A stretch of DNA of 26,108 bases from a virus: the IMG/VR virus record IMGVR_UViG_3300033144_004750, positions 1 through 26,108 of that record, one strand, 5' to 3'. The notes below the pieces were generated by a model. That model worked only from the letters and a program-made list of their open reading frames with translations, had not been told where the DNA came from and made no database searches. Below, piece by piece: positions 105 through 26,108 of the stretch (the first letter of the stretch is position 1; every line of letters starts with the position of its first letter). A program made the translations under genes and the position numbers.

Positions 105-584
105 ATGGAGGCTAAAGTTGTTAGTCATGATTCTTGGCGAAGTTGGTCATTAAATCAGTTTTCAAAAGAGTTCGGAGTTGCTAGAGAGACGGTCGTAAAA
201 AGAATTAATGATTCTGGAATACTTTCAGGTATGGAAAAAGGTGGTTTTCCTGTTTACCGTGTTGGTGAAGTTGCGACGGCAATTTTAAAGCCTGAAGGTG
301 CTTATAGTTCAGCCGATGAAATTAAAACCCCTGCCGATAGGCGGTTATGGTGGGCTTCTGAAAAAGACAAATTAGCAGTTGAAAAAGAGGCAGGTTTGTT
401 AATTTCTGTTGAGGATTCTCGCGAGCAAATGGCAGATATTGCCAAAATGGGATTACAAATTTTAGAGACTTTACCTGATATTTTAGAGCGTGATTTTAAT
501 TTAGACCCTGAAATTGTTGAATCTGTTGAAAATAAAATTCATGAGCTTCGTGAGTCGTGGGCAGATAAATTAGAGGCTGATTGA
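105..584 (+). CDS. Terminase small subunit (Nu1-like, DUF1441 type)
   Basis: Encodes 159 aa that probably recognise the packaging site on phage DNA and hand it to the large terminase. Residues about 14-50 (WSLNQFSKEFGVARETVVKR...) read as a winged helix-turn-helix, as in the Nu1/DUF1441 family. The middle and end are charged helix that would mediate oligomerisation and contact with the large subunit. Length is typical for the family. It is the first gene of the operon, and its TGA stop overlaps the ATG of the GpA-type terminase by one base, which supports both the assignment and translational coupling. The call rests on domain style plus position, not on a search. Confidence 0.8.
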   Translation: MEAKVVSHDSWRSWSLNQFSKEFGVARETVVKRINDSGILSGMEKGGFPVYRVGEVATAILKPEGAYSSADEIKTPADRRLWWASEKDKLAVEKEAGLLISVEDSREQMADIAKMGLQILETLPDILERDFNLDPEIVESVENKIHELRESWADKLEAD

Positions 585-6460: not shown

Positions 6461-7391
6461 ATGGCATTAGATATTTATTCGACGGCTACTTTAAACCGTG
6501 TTGTTCAGTCTTTGTTTCAAGCTCAAACTGGATTGTTGGGTTTGTTTTTTCCTTTAATTTCTCAGTCTACTAGTGAAGAAATTTATTTTGACGTGGAGGA
6601 TGGCAAGCGCAGAATTGCGCCATTTGTTTCTCCTTTACGCGGTGGGAATTGCAGGTGAAATGATTGGGGGAGCTTTAACCCCCGCCGCAAGAATGCAAGC
6701 TAATTTAGCCTCTGAATTATCAGACCAACTAAACATGTTAAAACGCCGTTTAGAGGTTATGGCTTCTGAGGCAATGCGAACGGGTAAGGTGACAGTTAAG
6801 GGTGATGGATACCCGACTGTTGTTGTTGATTTTGGACGTAATGCTGCGCACACTGTGACTTTAGGTGGTGGAGTCATGTGGACTGATACAGGCGTTTCAC
6901 CGCTTGATGATGTCGAGGATTGGTCTTTAACCATGCTTAAAAATAGCGGCGCAGTAGTGACCGATGTTGTTATGGATGTCAAAGCGATGCGGTTATTTAA
7001 AGCTGACCAGCGCGTTAAAGATACGATTAACACTGATTTTGGCGGCATGGATGAAATGAAGTTAGCTGCAATGGCTAAGCAAGGATTAAGTTATCAAGGT
7101 CGCGTTGATATGGTTCGGTATTGGGCGTATTCAGACTGGTATAACGACCCTGACACCGATGCAGTGACTGAAATGATTCCTGAATATACGGTTATTTTGG
7201 GCAGTGATCAAATGGACGGCACTCGCCATTTTGGGGCAATTAAAGATGAAAAGGCTGGCTATCAAGCTCTTGAGACTTTTTCTAAATCATGGACAGAAGA
7301 AGACCCTAGTCAGCGTTTGTTATTAATGCAATCTGCCCCATTAGTAGTGCCTTATCGTAAAGATGCTAGCTTTTGTGTGACGGTTGGTTAA
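6461..7391 (+). pseudogene. E: Major capsid protein (lambda gpE family), frameshifted and internally deleted
   Basis: The N-terminal part (frame of 6461, up to FVSPL near 6636) and the C-terminal part (a different frame, from about 6639, reading AVGIAGEMIGGALTPAARMQ to SAPLVVPYRKDASFCVTVG) are both clear gpE-type capsid sequence, but they are out of frame. The first frame stops at 6656-6658. Typical relatives carry about 35-40 residues between VSPL and the GE-IGG motif; here only about 5-6 codons are present. The missing piece is the usual segment with PAYVK. So about 30 codons, not a multiple of three bases, seem deleted. A CGGAG ribosome site precedes the ATG. Either a damaged prophage or an assembly error; a programmed shift is unlikely because sequence is missing. 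Confidence 0.85.
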
Positions 7392-8089: not shown

Positions 8090-10038
8090 TGGAAAAAATA
8101 GCACAAATAAATATTGGTACAACTGCTGATGATGGCACTGGGGATACAGCAAGAGCCGCCGCCGTTAAAATGAATGAGGCTATCACTGGTGAGCTATCAG
8201 TCATTGGAACGCCCGTTTATTCGGATTTACAGGTATTACATAATATTTTAAATTCTAGCGGGTTACTGGATGGTGGCGGGTTTTCTGCTAATTCTGATGG
8301 TTCGATAAAAGTCGCGGCGTTAAGTGGTTTAATTCGCGCGTCTGATGATCATACCTCAATTTTATATCCTTTTGATTTATCAGAGTTAGCGAGCTTAAGC
8401 TTAACGAATACCGTTTTAAATTATGTTTATGTTGAATATAACGCGGGTTCACCTCAAATTATTGCTACAGCTACCAAACGAGCAGACCGTCACTCTAATG
8501 TTTTTTTAGGAACTTCTTACCGAAATGGTAACGAATTGCATAATACCACGGCTGGCAAGCAACAAATTAGCAATGCAATCGGGGGCTTAATTGAAAGGCT
8601 ACAAGCTACAGAGTCATTTTTACATGCAAGTGGCGCGGCATTAAGTGCAACGGGAACGCGTAACATTGCTTGTTCATTAGGGTCGTTTTACGAAGCATTA
8701 AATCCAATCTCAACGATTGCGCAGGATACCAGCGGCGTTACTCCTAATAATCATACGTTTGAATATTTTTATTACAATGGCTCTGCTTGGATTACTCATG
8801 AGAGCAACGTGTCTGTGGTTGTTTTTACAGGTTCAGGGTTAGATGATGCAACTAGTGGCGGTCTTTTTATTGGGTCGCACACTCAAAATATTGTAGTTGA
8901 AATTGAGGGAACAGGAAGCCCTGATACTTTCAAATATACCTATAAAGATAACAATGGCGTAGACAACGTAGAAGCAACAGGCGTTGCTATTACGGGTTCT
9001 GCTCAAGTATTGGTTGATGATGTTAGCATTACGTTTGCTGCAACCACGGGGCATACAATAGGCGATAAGTGGGCGATTGATGCGACTTTATCTAGTCAAA
9101 TAGATAACACTCAATACAATAATACTGTATCTGGATTAGCTACACTTTCAAACAATAATTATGGAATCCATTGGATTTATTTAGACATTCATGGACACCT
9201 TGCTATTTTATTTGGACAGGATAGCTATTCTGGATTAGTTTCTGCTCAAGATGCTAGCCCACCTTCATCTGTACCCGCTGAATTAATAGGACACGCGCGG
9301 CTTATTGGTCGGGTTATTATCAAAAAAAGCGCGGCTGCTTTTATATCAATAGATAATAATTATGGTGAGGCGTTTCAAGCCTCTGTTGCCACATCTCATA
9401 GCGGATTAACTGATATAAATGCAGACGACCACAGCAAGACGTTTATTACCCTTGGTAGCTCCGCAGCGGTTGCTATTGGCGCGGAAAATTCACAGAAAAT
9501 AATCATTAGCGGTACGGCTACTATAACAAGTTTTGGTACTGCGAATAACGGAGTTAAGCGCGAAATTATTGCTAGTGGCGCATTCACTTTAACCAATAAT
9601 ACTAATATCAGAGTACAAGGCGGTGCGGATTATATCGCAGAAATTGGCGATTTAATCCAATGCTTTAGCGATGGTACAAACTGGGATATTTTTATTCAGA
9701 AAGCGAGTGGAAACTCGGTAGCAGATATACTAAAAAATAATTGTGTCGGATGGGTCACTTTTAATGGTACAGGATCCCTATCAATTCTTGATAGTTCAGG
9801 GATAATATCTAGCGTTTCTGACTTAGGGGCTGGTTCATACCAAGTGAATTTTTCGCAAGATATGGCAAACACAAGCTATGCAGTATCTATGGCAGCTAAA
9901 GTTAGTGCCTCATGGTCTAACGCTGGGAATAATGTGGACTCGAAAGCTGTGGGCTCTGTGACGGTCACAACAATAGAGGGTACAGTCCCAACTGATAGCC
10001 CCTTAGTTGATGTTTTGATTTTTGGAGAGCTAGCATGA
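8089..10038 (+). CDS. Tail fibre / receptor-binding-like protein, 649 aa
   Basis: The N-terminus IAQINIGTTADDGTGDTARA is the widespread fibre start found in many phage adhesins. Residues about 265-340 form a repeat-type beta domain (ITGSAQVLVDDVSITFAATT) shared by fibres. Around residue 440, HSGLTDINADDHSKTFITLG is the HxGL...DDH-type shaft motif. The C-terminus (GAGSYQVNFSQDMANTSYAV) is a typical fibre tip domain. It would bind a host surface structure. It is coupled to neighbours by TAATG and ATGA overlaps. Its place between capsid and head-tail joining genes is unusual for a lambda-like operon, where fibres follow the tail genes, so it could instead be a head fibre. Confidence 0.75.
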   Translation: MEKIAQINIGTTADDGTGDTARAAAVKMNEAITGELSVIGTPVYSDLQVLHNILNSSGLLDGGGFSANSDGSIKVAALSGLIRASDDHTSILYPFDLSELASLSLTNTVLNYVYVEYNAGSPQIIATATKRADRHSNVFLGTSYRNGNELHNTTAGKQQISNAIGGLIERLQATESFLHASGAALSATGTRNIACSLGSFYEALNPISTIAQDTSGVTPNNHTFEYFYYNGSAWITHESNVSVVVFTGSGLDDATSGGLFIGSHTQNIVVEIEGTGSPDTFKYTYKDNNGVDNVEATGVAITGSAQVLVDDVSITFAATTGHTIGDKWAIDATLSSQIDNTQYNNTVSGLATLSNNNYGIHWIYLDIHGHLAILFGQDSYSGLVSAQDASPPSSVPAELIGHARLIGRVIIKKSAAAFISIDNNYGEAFQASVATSHSGLTDINADDHSKTFITLGSSAAVAIGAENSQKIIISGTATITSFGTANNGVKREIIASGAFTLTNNTNIRVQGGADYIAEIGDLIQCFSDGTNWDIFIQKASGNSVADILKNNCVGWVTFNGTGSLSILDSSGIISSVSDLGAGSYQVNFSQDMANTSYAVSMAAKVSASWSNAGNNVDSKAVGSVTVTTIEGTVPTDSPLVDVLIFGELA

Positions 10039-22437: not shown

Positions 22438-22605
22438 CTAATATTCATTCAAAAGCTCTCTGTTTGCCTTCATTGATGCCCACGTGTTTATGATGTCGCA
22501 TGAACATCTAAGCTTCTCATCCTCTCTATTTTTTTCTTGTTTTATTAATGTCATATTACCAGAATATTCACCACATTTTTTACAAGTATAGTAAGTATAG
22601 GTCAT
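22438..22605 (-). CDS. Small zinc-ribbon protein, 55 aa, antisense to the tail operon
   Basis: Starts MTYTYYTCKKCGEYSGNMTL. C8 and C11 form a CxxC knuckle, and C34 and C36 (RCSCD) can complete a four-Cys zinc site. AGGTGA lies four bases upstream as a clear ribosome site. The C-terminus is helical (WASMKANRELLNEY). It follows the other leftward gene by 13 bases, so both form one small operon. Function unknown; such ribbons often bind nucleic acids or proteins. Confidence 0.6.
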   Translation of the reverse strand: MTYTYYTCKKCGEYSGNMTLIKQEKNREDEKLRCSCDIINTWASMKANRELLNEY

Positions 22606-22618
22606 GATTCACCTTGTT

Positions 22619-22924
22619 TTAATGTGAAAAAGTAAAACGTTGATAGCGTTCTAAAATTTCAGAAAGTTTAAATTTACGCTTAAAGAAATTTAAGGTTAAT
22701 TTTTTGTTTTTAGTGCTTTTCTTAATTTCAGTAATACAAATAGATTGAGCTTTGCATAAAAAACCTGCTTTTCGATAAAGCTCTGGATTTTGTTTTTGTT
22801 TTACTGCCCACTCAATGGGAACATTAATTTCAATAAATTTTAAAGCCGTTAGCTCACCTTTTTCATATTTTCCGAAAGCTTCATTTATCGTTTTTGCGTG
22901 GTTTTCATTAGTCAAGCCATTCAT
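22619..22924 (-). CDS. Hypothetical protein, 101 aa, antisense to the tail operon
   Basis: Starts MNGLTNENHAKTINEAFGKY with GAGAGG upstream at a good distance. The protein is Lys-rich (IKKSTKNKKLTLNFFKRKFK) and mostly helical, with one Cys (CKAQSICITEI) pair. It is the first gene of a two-gene leftward operon nested between two rightward tail genes. I do not recognise it. Its base composition is AT-rich, like the PLD-like gene, suggesting separate acquisition. Confidence 0.65.
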   Translation of the reverse strand: MNGLTNENHAKTINEAFGKYEKGELTALKFIEINVPIEWAVKQKQNPELYRKAGFLCKAQSICITEIKKSTKNKKLTLNFFKRKFKLSEILERYQRFTFSH

Positions 22925-22962: not shown

Positions 22963-24783
22963 ATGGGGCAAGCACAAATAAAAGAAGTTTTAAGCGATTC
23001 AGAATACAAAATTCAATATTTACATGATTCTGAGTTAGCCGCCGCTAAAAAATCTTTCTTGGATGAAAGAAAATTAGCGTTAAATAAAGAAAAAATAAGC
23101 AATCAAACTCAGATTGATAATCAATTAATTGTGCTAGATGATGCTATTGCAGCTCTTGATGCTGCCATAGATACGCCCTTTAATCCTGATGATGCTGGCG
23201 AAGTCGAAGCGCATGATAAATCCATTAAATTAGCCGCTGAAAATTCAGGTAAGCAGCGTAAAATTCTTAAGGGTTTGGTTGACAATCAAACTCAAATTGT
23301 TTTACAAATTGCAGATTTAGAAAAGCAGTTAGAGTTATTAGCCCTTGCCATTGCTGATATTCCTGTTTTTACAGTGTGGTGCGCTGATTATTATGTCAGT
23401 TTAGCCGTTGATGCTATTGTCCCTACCTTAGAAATTAACGACGAATATAACCTATCTAATCAGCATGTCTTAATCATGCCGCACACGTTCAGGGCAAAGC
23501 AGCAAGACATTGATTTATGGATTGAGCAAAGCGATAACCAGCAGTTTAAGATTGATGATTTTAATAGTCAGATTGATAGCGTAAATTTACGTTTGATAGA
23601 ATTAACGACTGAGCAAGCGGATAAAGAAGCGGAAATTGTTAATGCTTTTATGGCTTTAAGCTCGCTTGCGAATCAAGCCCCCCGTGATGATGCCGCTTAT
23701 ACTTTTCAGCAGAGTGCTATTGAAACGCTAGAATTTGAATTAAGCATTATTATTAATGAGATTAGTGCAAAAATAGAAAAGGGCTTAATCTTAGAAAAAC
23801 AAAGGGTCTTGGTTGAAGCTCGGCAAGCTATTATTGACGCTGAAAAAGCTACTTTTGACACCTCATTGGCAAACAATACCCCTATTGTGCCACTGATTAC
23901 TGCTGAAACGGGATTGTATCAGCCGTTTATCGCTTCTGATGATTTTACCTCGTTATTTAATAAGCTTATTTTAAATGGGGTGCAAAAATGGAATCCTGTT
24001 TTTAGAGTTGGTAAAATTACTGCCTTAGATTTTGAGGTCAAAACTGCATCAGTTTTATTAGAGTTTTCTGAAAAAGATATAAGCGCAATTGCTATCGATG
24101 GTGATAACGAATATTTAAATATTAATCAAGGAGTGCTTTTAAATGATGTTAATATTCAATATTCATTTTCTCATGCGCACACGTTCAAAATTAATGACGT
24201 GGTGGTTGTTGATTTCAATAAAGATTTTAATTATCCGAATATTATTGGCTTTGAATCTAATCCTGTTAAGCCGCCGTTTTTTTTAGTTGAGGATAAGGAC
24301 GAATATTTAACTATTTTTTACTGGGATGATCCATCTTATTATGTTGAGGCGTGGCAGATTAAATTATCACTCTTAGACGAAAATAAAACTTTGTTTGATG
24401 TTTACGCAAATTATGCAGACTATAATGTGGTCTTGAATGGAGCTACGGTGCAGTTTTCGGGCGGTAATGAGCGTCGTGCGCAATATTTTTCTACGCAATG
24501 GCTCACAGAAGCTAGGCTCTTTTACCCACCAGAAATTACAGAAAGCAATAAACCAGTTTTAAAAATTTCACAGCGTGTAAGGCCTACAGTTCCGCAAACT
24601 AAACCTGATACCAGCCATTTTATTACTGTTCAGATTATTCATAAAACAAGTTTAGAGAAAGTTTTAAGCGTATCTATTGAGCTTAATAGTGATGAATCTT
24701 TTGTAGCTATTACAGATAATGATAGTCAGCGTTTAGCCCCTAAAACTGGGTTTGTCGGTGAGTATTTCACCCTTAATTATTAG
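22963..24783 (+). CDS. Tail-tip protein with long coiled coils, 606 aa
   Basis: Residues about 20-130 and 195-310 are heptad-rich helices (for example LKGLVDNQTQIVLQIADLEK) that would form trimeric coiled coils. Residues about 345-425 are beta strands with FRVGKITALDFEVKTASVLL and INDVVVVDFNKDF, a pattern like the small barrel near the spike of baseplates. The C-terminal 150 residues are a further beta domain ending FVGEYFTLNY. It probably forms a central fibre or spike. No peptidase or lysozyme motif is seen. Last large tail gene in the window; AGGG lies about 10 bases before the ATG. Confidence 0.65.
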   Translation: MGQAQIKEVLSDSEYKIQYLHDSELAAAKKSFLDERKLALNKEKISNQTQIDNQLIVLDDAIAALDAAIDTPFNPDDAGEVEAHDKSIKLAAENSGKQRKILKGLVDNQTQIVLQIADLEKQLELLALAIADIPVFTVWCADYYVSLAVDAIVPTLEINDEYNLSNQHVLIMPHTFRAKQQDIDLWIEQSDNQQFKIDDFNSQIDSVNLRLIELTTEQADKEAEIVNAFMALSSLANQAPRDDAAYTFQQSAIETLEFELSIIINEISAKIEKGLILEKQRVLVEARQAIIDAEKATFDTSLANNTPIVPLITAETGLYQPFIASDDFTSLFNKLILNGVQKWNPVFRVGKITALDFEVKTASVLLEFSEKDISAIAIDGDNEYLNINQGVLLNDVNIQYSFSHAHTFKINDVVVVDFNKDFNYPNIIGFESNPVKPPFFLVEDKDEYLTIFYWDDPSYYVEAWQIKLSLLDENKTLFDVYANYADYNVVLNGATVQFSGGNERRAQYFSTQWLTEARLFYPPEITESNKPVLKISQRVRPTVPQTKPDTSHFITVQIIHKTSLEKVLSVSIELNSDESFVAITDNDSQRLAPKTGFVGEYFTLNY

Positions 24784-24788
24784 CCTTA

Positions 24789-24947
24789 ATGAATGATTTA
24801 GAATTATTAGATTTATTGGATTTATTGGAAAATGCTGATTTTATACATAATCATTATGCAAGAAAAGCGAACCAGTTAAAAAATGAATTAGCTAAAAAGC
24901 TAGGAGTTGAATTAAAAAAGCCACTTCCTTTGAAAAATAAAAAGTGA
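24789..24947 (+). CDS. Small Leu/Lys-rich protein at the operon end, 52 aa
   Basis: Starts MNDLELLDLLDLLENADFIH, an acidic, Leu-rich helix, and ends with a basic ANQLKNELAKKLGVELKK stretch. It lies six bases after the large coiled-coil gene, so it is likely co-transcribed. No clear ribosome site. Its stop lies inside the first hairpin of the attC-like series. No family recognised; it could be a tail accessory or the ORF of the first cassette. Confidence 0.5.
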   Translation: MNDLELLDLLDLLENADFIHNHYARKANQLKNELAKKLGVELKKPLPLKNKK

Positions 24948-25013
24948 TATGCGGGCGAATCTACCCGAAAAAAATATTATCAGGTAGATTCGACACGATA
25001 ATCATTGTTATCT
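24935..25013. repeat. Structured hairpin A, attC-like
   Basis: Perfect 10-bp stem CGAATCTACC (24956-24965) and GGTAGATTCG (24983-24992). The outer arms also pair imperfectly: AAATAAAAAGTGATAT on the left against ATAATCATTGTTATCT on the right. The right end GTTATCT (25007-25013) is a good attC R' box, but the left box is AAATAAA instead of AAATAAC. It shares its 3' part, CGA(T/C)AATCATTGTTAT, with hairpin B, while the stem bases differ but still pair. Confidence 0.5.
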
Positions 25014-25035
25014 TGTTGCGAACTGCGTTCTGACA

Positions 25036-25138
25036 AGATAACAAAAAAATCCACCCGACCTTTTAAAGCGTCATGCCTTTTGCAAAAAGACCGCAAAAGC
25101 CCTGCCACTTTAAAATGCAGGTGATTTTGGCGTTATTT
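25036..25138 (+). repeat. attC-like recombination site 1 (103 bp)
   Basis: Left arm GATAACAAAAAAATCCACC and the complement of the right arm (AATAACGCCAAAATCACC) match as R'', spacer, L'' versus R', spacer, L'. The TAAC boxes pair, the spacer AAA versus GCC stays open, AAAATC pairs, and one extra C in the left arm is unpaired. This is the architecture of integron attC sites in the usual orientation along the plus strand. The centre has its own hairpins. Confidence 0.55.
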
Positions 25139-25139
25139 T

Positions 25140-25235
25140 TCAGTTGTAGCTAGTATCAACATACTCATAGCAGTAAACTGGAATCCCTCCAGCTTTGTAG
25201 TAATGTATTTTCCTTGTTAGTGTTCCTGATGTCAT
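25140..25235 (-). CDS. Micro-ORF, 31 aa, between attC-like sites 1 and 2
   Basis: Starts MTSGTLTRKIHYYKAGGIPV, with AGGA seven bases upstream on the minus strand. It ends two bases from the R' box of site 1 and begins 28 bases from the R'' box of site 2, filling the cassette body exactly. Tyr-rich and without a recognised domain. Its reality is uncertain because of its length, but the good ribosome site and fit to the array favour it. Confidence 0.4.
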   Translation of the reverse strand: MTSGTLTRKIHYYKAGGIPVYCYEYVDTSYN

Positions 25236-25262
25236 TTTAATTCCTAATTTATTGCGTTAAAA

Positions 25263-25365
25263 ACATAACAAAAAAATCCAGTGGACATAAAAAGCCTAGC
25301 TAAATTTTCAGTTATGTTAAAGTTTTTTGGAGCGGCTTTTTATGCCGCTGATTTTGGTGTTATAA
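25263..25365 (+). repeat. attC-like recombination site 2 (103 bp)
   Basis: Left arm ACATAACAAAAAAATCCAGTGG pairs with the right arm, whose complement reads TTATAACACCAAAATCAGCGG. TAAC boxes pair, the AAA versus ACC spacer is open, AAAATC pairs, and one extrahelical C occurs at the same place as in site 1. The length is also the same (103 bp), while the centre differs completely, including a GCGGC/GCCGC hairpin. Conserved ends with variable centres are what attC sites show. Confidence 0.6.
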
Positions 25366-25376
25366 ATCTAAGTAGT

Positions 25377-25535
25377 CTAAAGAACGTCTCCTGCAATGCG
25401 CTTGAAATGTTCTTGTTTTATAATGACAAATCCATCAGAACCGTCAGCGTTAAATACTACTTTTATATCGTTATTTTCTAAAACATCAATTGTAACTAAG
25501 TCATGCTCATATTCTGCAATTTCTATATCATCCAT
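25377..25535 (-). CDS. Small acidic protein, 52 aa, in the cassette-like array
   Basis: Starts MDDIEIAEYEHDLVTIDVLE; AGGA precedes the ATG at about eight bases, which is why this start is preferred over an upstream TTG at 25559. Predicted as a small beta protein with a C-terminal helix (VIIKQEHFKRIAGDVL). Its stop lies 12 bases from the R' box of site 2 and its start 28 bases from the left box of the next element. Unknown function. Confidence 0.6.
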   Translation of the reverse strand: MDDIEIAEYEHDLVTIDVLENNDIKVVFNADGSDGFVIIKQEHFKRIAGDVL

Positions 25536-25563
25536 TTCTAATCCTATTTTAGTGTGCAAACAT

Positions 25564-25605
25564 TTATAACAAAAAAATCAAGCCGATGGTAAACCGTCGT
25601 TATGT
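25564..25605 (+). repeat. Truncated attC-like element 3 (42 bp)
   Basis: The left end TTATAACAAAAAAATCAAG is the same as in sites 1 and 2, and the right end GTTATGT is a good R' box, but no matching L' arm is present. A 6-bp inner stem CGATGG/CCGTCG (one G-T pair) closes a TAAA loop. Probably a deleted attC, or a distinct short hairpin. Confidence 0.45.
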
Positions 25606-25606
25606 T

Positions 25607-25843
25607 TTAATTAATCATTGATAAAATCACATAATCTTTATCAAGGCCATATTTGCCACCATACAAAATGTGACTAATTACTTTTTTAACGTTTCTACCT
25701 GTAAATTTTTTGTTTTCAAATTCAAGCAAAATTAAATCATCGCCTACTTTAAAATTTCGGTCGTTTTTTCTTAATTCTGCTTTTTTAAATCCTGCAAGAA
25801 CATCATTAAAATGTTCTGGCAATGTTTTTAGTTTATGTTTCAT
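25607..25843 (-). CDS. DUF3850 (ASCH/PUA-like) protein, 78 aa
   Basis: Starts MKHKLKTLPEHFNDVLAGFK, followed by AELRKNDRNFKVGDDLILLE and TGR..., then YGLDKDYVILSMIN. This matches the DUF3850 pattern (H-LKT-PE-F, KK-E-RKNDR-F-VGD-L-L-E, TGR, GL-YVILS), a small ASCH-like domain thought to bind RNA or modified nucleic acid and common in phages. GGAG lies five bases upstream, which selects this ATG over an in-frame start at 25900. It is the best recognised gene of the array. Precise substrate is unknown. Confidence 0.8.
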   Translation of the reverse strand: MKHKLKTLPEHFNDVLAGFKKAELRKNDRNFKVGDDLILLEFENKKFTGRNVKKVISHILYGGKYGLDKDYVILSMIN

Positions 25844-25866
25844 GTTTGCTCCAAAAAAAACAGCTC

Positions 25867-25900
25867 GTAGGATGGGTAGAGCGATAGCGAACCCCATCAA
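25867..25900. repeat. REP-like palindrome (GATGGG...CCCATC type)
   Basis: GATGGG (25871-25876) and CCCATC (25893-25898) flank a GAGCGATAGCGA core in the string GTAGGATGGGTAGAGCGA. It resembles short dispersed palindromes I recall from environmental gammaproteobacteria. It lies upstream of the DUF3850 gene on the minus strand. Confidence 0.5.
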
Positions 25901-25906
25901 GCTATG

Positions 25907-25979
25907 AAATAAAAAAATGGGCGGATATACCTAAAAAACCAATACTTAGGTATATTTGCCCCGACAATCATTGTTATTT
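25907..25979. repeat. Structured hairpin B, relative of hairpin A
   Basis: A 16-bp stem GGGCGGATATACCTAA (25919-25934) and TTAGGTATATTTGCCC (25946-25961), with two G-T pairs, around an 11-base loop. It is followed by CGACAATCATTGTTATTT, nearly the same as after hairpin A. Compared with A the stem bases differ on both sides yet still pair, which suggests selection on structure. Confidence 0.5.
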
Positions 25980-26029
25980 TTCAAGCCACTTAATTATTGT
26001 GGTGGTGGTAAGTTATTGGGGCGTTATGT
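25930..26029 (+). repeat. Degenerate attC-like site 4
   Basis: The right arm TAAGTTATTGGGGCGTTATG (26010-26028) has a canonical GGC-GTTA end. Its L' part pairs with CCAATACTTA in the loop and right stem of hairpin B, apart from one extra base on the right arm. The left box is TAAA instead of TAAC. Length is about 100 bp, close to sites 1 and 2. It competes with hairpin B for the same bases, so it is a weak call. Confidence 0.3.
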
Positions 26030-26108
26030 TAATTTTGCAGATATAGATGCTAATAGTTCAAATATCTCTTGCTTTCTTTTAGCAAGCATTTCTTCTTGCT
26101 GTTTTTGT
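26024..26108 (-). CDS. Partial leftward gene running off the right edge
   Basis: The last 27 residues (QKQQEEMLAKRKQEIFELLA...) and a TAA stop whose complement, TTA at 26024-26026, lies inside the GTTATG box. The fragment is a charged helix. The start is outside the window, so nothing about function can be said. It continues the pattern of a leftward ORF ending exactly at an attC-like right end. Confidence 0.5.
   Translation of the reverse strand, partial: QKQQEEMLAKRKQEIFELLASISAKLT

Follow-up and report, generated by a model that had tools for sequence, protein, structure and literature searches.

The right end of a 26,108-base virus record, analysed here over its full length (hereafter the window), carries two hairpins of 101–103 bp that, judged by structure and covariance models, are genuine attC sites with predicted recombination by an integron integrase (IntI). 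The region that holds them is very probably a CALIN in the lineage of methanotroph chromosomal integrons, and the phage host is probably a methane-eating bacterium. The term CALIN, an attC cluster without integrase, applies because the 26 kb record, which ends inside the array, contains no integron integrase by TIGR02249. CALINs are counted from two attC sites upward (PMC9024848), and the record holds two strong sites with no neighbouring intI; having no intI, it does not hold a complete integron, which comprises intI and attI. A sequence-only reading of this DNA had placed the attC sites within the phage structural region. The elements sit just past it instead: the plus-strand late operon, encoding terminase, portal, S49 protease, capsid, tape measure and tail genes, ends at 24783, and the end of the record falls within the attC region (Table 1).

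Table 1. Features of the attC region and its left flank, in window positions.
Feature	Positions	Strand	Evidence
Last large late/tail operon gene, 606 aa	22963..24783	+	ORF; homologue of the last late gene of Marinobacter phage PS3, E 3e-13
Small ORF after tail operon, 52 aa	24790..24948	+	Sequence; no PHROG match
Hairpin-containing repeat, copy a (degenerate attC at most)	24953..25014	+	74% identity to 25919-25980; folds; no match to attC models
attC site 1	25037..25137	+ (top strand = +)	R1 83 bits, E 7.7e-20; R2 30.2 bits, E 8.4e-6; strict rule; 84-89% identity to attC sites in genomes of the symbiont's order
Cassette 1 ORF, 31 aa	25140..25235	-	Preceded by TAGGAAT; stop directly before hairpin; no PHROG match
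attC site 2	25264..25364	+ (top strand = +)	R2 43.5 bits, E 3.5e-9; R1 50.9 bits, E 3.3e-11; strict rule
Cassette 2 ORF, 52 aa	25377..25535	-	Preceded by TAGGATTAG; no phage relative
attC site 3, truncated (R and left L box kept, right L box lost)	25564..25605	+	Left end 90% identical to site 1; R2 13.1 bits, E 0.18
Cassette 3 ORF, DUF3850/ASCH-fold protein, 78 aa	25607..25843	-	PF12961, E 2e-23
Interspersed repeat copy (GTAGGATGGGTAGAGCG...), upstream of DUF3850 gene	25862..25900	.	blastn, genomes of the symbiont's order
Hairpin-containing repeat, copy b	25919..25980	+	74% identity to 24953-25014
Possible degenerate attC site 4, right end GGGGCGTTATG	25930..26028	+	R2 18.4 bits, E 0.008, borderline; no R1 match
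Partial ORF running off contig end	26024..26107	-	Stop codon inside right R box of site 4

Both elements fold into an R stem, a 3-nt open spacer, an L stem with one extrahelical base and then a longer stem. The left and right ends quoted in the sequence-only reading for two 103-bp elements lie where it had put them, and its description of paired R boxes, an open spacer, L boxes and one unpaired base is borne out for both, minus strand included. The R boxes of the two sites have pairing AAC/GTT cores, and their outer positions depart from RYYYAAC/GTTRRRY, likewise in methanotroph sites. Strand polarity is set by the extrahelical base of the L boxes, which on the minus strand is a G in the 3′ arm. 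The spacer, the extrahelical base and the model score together identify the plus strand as the attC top strand; for site 1, the covariance model R1 described below clearly favours plus (83 versus 37.5 bits). Folding z-scores relative to shuffles were -6.6 for 25030-25144 on the minus strand and -5.2 for 25257-25371 on the plus strand. A strict attC rule (AAC..GTT, at least five of six R pairs, 3-nt spacers, and eight of eight L pairs with one bulge), applied to both strands of the whole window, returned sites 1 and 2 and no others; among 2,000 dinucleotide shuffles of 24783-26108, one contained at least one such element and none contained two.

Two home-made covariance models were built with the window left out of training: R1 from nine sites in the genome (chromosomal integron) of a methanotroph symbiont, and R2 from 23 phage attC sites, taken from one Vibrio and one Shewanella phage. 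Running an attC covariance model on the two 103-bp elements had been proposed as a check, and R1 and R2 both match both elements strongly. All training sites share with the two elements the extrahelical base, the AAN spacer and the GGYGTTA end. As a control, R2 was applied to 0.95 Mb of other viral DNA, picked because it contains a right-end motif, and gave six matches, the best of which (36.6 bits) is itself attC-like. Rfam returned no match in the window.

These results also bear on a rival reading, in which the hairpins are plain intrinsic terminators with a fortuitous likeness to attC. Six terminator-like sites occur in 24500-26108, versus 1.1 in shuffles, and two of them overlap elements 2 and 3; attC sites are able to terminate weakly too, so the two readings overlap. 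However, intrinsic terminators need no conserved R and L boxes, AAN spacer, fixed extrahelical base or conserved ends, and the strong R1 and R2 matches, the single positive shuffle in 2,000 and a site 1 centre shared with chromosomal attC sites make a chance resemblance very improbable. Nor were the same ends found as plain terminators in related phages, an outcome that the sequence-only reading had named as fatal to it: Marinobacter phage PS3 and KLER1-1, the two closest annotated phages, gave no match to any attC model.

Individually, only sites 1 and 2 are significant. The truncated copy proposed at 25564-25605 is present, but at 13.1 bits it is weak and not significant alone, and a chance R2 match at window position 9522 scores 13.6 bits. 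As to the degenerate copies proposed on either side, the repeat pair 24953-25014/25919-25980 is real, 24935-25013 matches no attC model, and 25930-26028 is borderline. The repeats at 24953 and 25919 were also considered as intact attC sites and were dropped, having no R1 or R2 support.

The affiliation of the sites was traced with a composite attC pattern, which in a scan of 84,980 genomes matched three places, all in one metagenome-assembled genome (MAG) of a Bathymodiolus methanotrophic symbiont. This MAG encodes an intact integron integrase (TIGR02249, 436 bits); upstream of the gene, the same contig bears a series of attC sites, and other contigs have more. The search for intI and for more copies of the end motifs in host genomes, suggested by the sequence-only reading, thereby arrived at close relatives of the sites upstream of a real integrase gene. 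The same attC class is present in 14 of the 18 genomes of the symbiont's genus. In one chromosome of that genus (G114; L345 and L346), we also observed a large attC array on one strand, with sites every 0.3-5 kb. The symbiont's order, as inferred from the MAG, is apparently Methylococcales, an order for which Ghaly et al. 2021 (PMC8352920) list a dedicated attC model. At least seven genomes of the order (G179, G251, G119, G277, G230, G005 and others) carry sites with 84-89% identity to site 1, whose similarity to chromosomal attC sites extends into the hairpin centre. By R1 and blastn, the sites resemble the chromosomal attC sites of the order and are of Methylococcales type, a likeness to the published class (PMC8352920) that is judged here with home-made models. 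Beyond the attC sites, 137 of the 311 genomes of the order have some blastn match to the region, and many of these match the interspersed repeat at 25862-25900, at up to 97% identity.

Viral sequences were scanned as well. The composite attC pattern has no match in viral contigs, and half-motif scans of these contigs gave, among the matches listed, mostly chance hits. Minimal attC-like elements were seen between genes of three other viral contigs, at L129:6053-6108 (minus), L154:1439-1496 and 175-206 (both minus) and L359:1200-1245 (plus). They measure 46-58 bp, one being more truncated, share one consensus (TAACNAAAAAATGCAGCGGAC..GCCGCTGATTTTGGCGTTAT) and score 36.6, 25.3 and 28.1 bits with R2 for L129, L154 and L359, respectively; those of L154 flank a DNA methyltransferase gene. 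Compared by blastn with phage and plasmid records, the region gave a DUF3850 match and otherwise only weak matches.

Predicted ORFs of 31 and 52 aa lie between attC sites, as in gene cassettes. The gaps between attC sites are 127-326 bp, and the majority of 52 intervals examined in host arrays are larger. All likely ORFs (31 aa, 52 aa, the 78-aa DUF3850 protein and the partial one) are on the minus strand, antisense to the attC polarity; three of them have ribosome-binding-site-like sequences, and their stops fall near or inside the next hairpin. For cassette 2, one of the three cassettes, orientation is ambiguous by ORF length alone (57 versus 60 aa). Among the 52 host intervals, 38 are sense, 10 antisense and 4 ambiguous, a crude comparison because the longest ORF was used and the sites were loosely placed. 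As far as reading frames can indicate, the orientation of these likely genes against the attC polarity appears unusual. Relatives of the DUF3850 protein occur in 469 phage records versus 1 of the 311 genomes of the symbiont's order; the sole match of the cassette 2 ORF (E 0.006) is likewise in one of the 311.

The late operon to the left is homologous to that of PS3 (MF959999) from the terminase to the last tail gene. Searches with peptide patterns turned up no viral relatives of either the portal or the last tail protein, and the latter has no match in the 311 genomes of the symbiont's order. Two irregularities were observed within the structural genes: the major capsid gene (6461-7391) is split over two frames near 6650, with both parts aligning to the PS3 capsid gene, and in 22500-22924 the tail operon is interrupted by minus-strand ORFs (one is 101 aa long) of no clear family, with a plus-strand structural gene on either side. 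The broken capsid frame stems either from prophage decay or from misassembly.

Between ownership of the array by the host and by the phage, the two alternatives that the sequence-only reading had offered, the evidence on this contig is almost evenly balanced. We see about an even chance that the phage is a prophage located within or adjacent to a chromosomal integron of the host, the array being host DNA past its right end. The attC lineage and the host interspersed repeat inside the array point this way, as do the frame-broken capsid gene and a similar published case in Vibrio anguillarum (PMC9892861). Beyond its late operon, PS3 has a tRNA-3′-end-like stretch followed by an integrase, and a prophage of PS3 type would therefore end there; an attC-like attP was also sought in PS3 and was not found. 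However, the cassettes are atypical of the examined host arrays, being tiny and in an orientation seen in only 10 of 52 host intervals, and DUF3850 is phage-typical and rare in the symbiont's order. In addition, a search of the window found no tRNA that would mark an att site, and no att junction is identifiable because a single phage end is present.

The chance that the cassettes are instead part of the phage genome falls somewhat short of even. On that account the phage captured them from an integron of a methanotroph, and the cassette genes have come to run with a leftward phage operon converging on the late operon. The likely minus-strand ORFs, with plausible ribosome-binding sites and running stop-to-hairpin in tandem, are consistent with such an operon, and so are the tiny antisense cassettes, the 469 phage records (and 1 of 311 genomes) with DUF3850 and the opposite-strand gene block past the late operon in both KLER1-1 and PS3. 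The attC-like elements amid phage genes in L129, L154 and L359 and published precedents (PMC9892861) also favour it. Yet the nearest relatives of the attC sites are found in chromosomes, no other viral contig of the collection shares the 19-bp core of site 1, the array contains a host interspersed repeat, and the frame-broken capsid gene fits a decaying prophage or an assembly error; no phage gene is visible beyond the array because the contig ends within it. Overall, we lean slightly toward a host flank over phage ownership.

Efficient recombination of attC is confined to its bottom strand, and this fixes the orientation of cassettes (PMC11023631). The minus strand of the window would be this recombinogenic bottom strand and, when single-stranded, would fold into the R/L-box hairpin. 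A host IntI acting in trans may then have cut and joined at the R box (plus-strand GTT), inserting each small cassette, and the sites may be active at present. The array would since have decayed, with site 3 truncated and site 4 doubtful, as is expected with no integrase in cis.

The array connects phage DNA with methanotroph chromosomal integrons, and we know of no description of phage-borne cassette flow in these bacteria. A more elaborate scenario, which we regard as possible but rather doubtful, is that a temperate methanotroph phage carries captured host cassettes as a leftward operon, with every gene antisense to attC and expressed by phage transcription rather than from an integron promoter, and that these could be returned to a host integron. 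If phage-borne, the array would support the idea that phages carry integron cassettes from one bacterium to another, and the uniformly antisense layout would be a testable sign of cassettes placed under the phage's own transcription.

The sequence-only reading had regarded attC-type cassettes in a phage structural region as very unusual; Qi et al. 2023 (PMC9892861), however, already described integrons and CALINs from phages, one example being a Vibrio anguillarum prophage with attC sites on both sides, and showed that IntI1 recombines five of the six phage attC sites they tested. Our find is therefore a further case of a known type, unusual in the orientation of its genes. The phage CALINs TJE1, P12002L and PH101 (PMC9892861) are likewise attC clusters without integrase in phage DNA. 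The cassettes of TJE1 and of PH101 all run in one direction and the attC sites of P12002L are divergent, whereas the window has one attC polarity with all likely genes against it. Vibrio anguillarum phage Va_90-11-286_p16 (MK672802), whose attC sites are in the R2 training set, is also a prophage with a chromosomal integron; it includes intI and has attC sites at both ends, whereas the window shows one phage end only. PS3 shares the late operon but has no attC-like site. In the Bathymodiolus brooksi methanotrophic gill symbiont MAG (JAJJBE01), the chromosomal integron includes intI, and its cassettes are mostly larger and carry sense genes, in contrast to the tiny cassettes and antisense genes of the window, which has no intI; the attC ends, spacers, extrahelical base and polarity of that integron are the same, and its site centre is also like that of site 1 (TTTAAAGCGTCA..GCAAA..CACTTTAAA).
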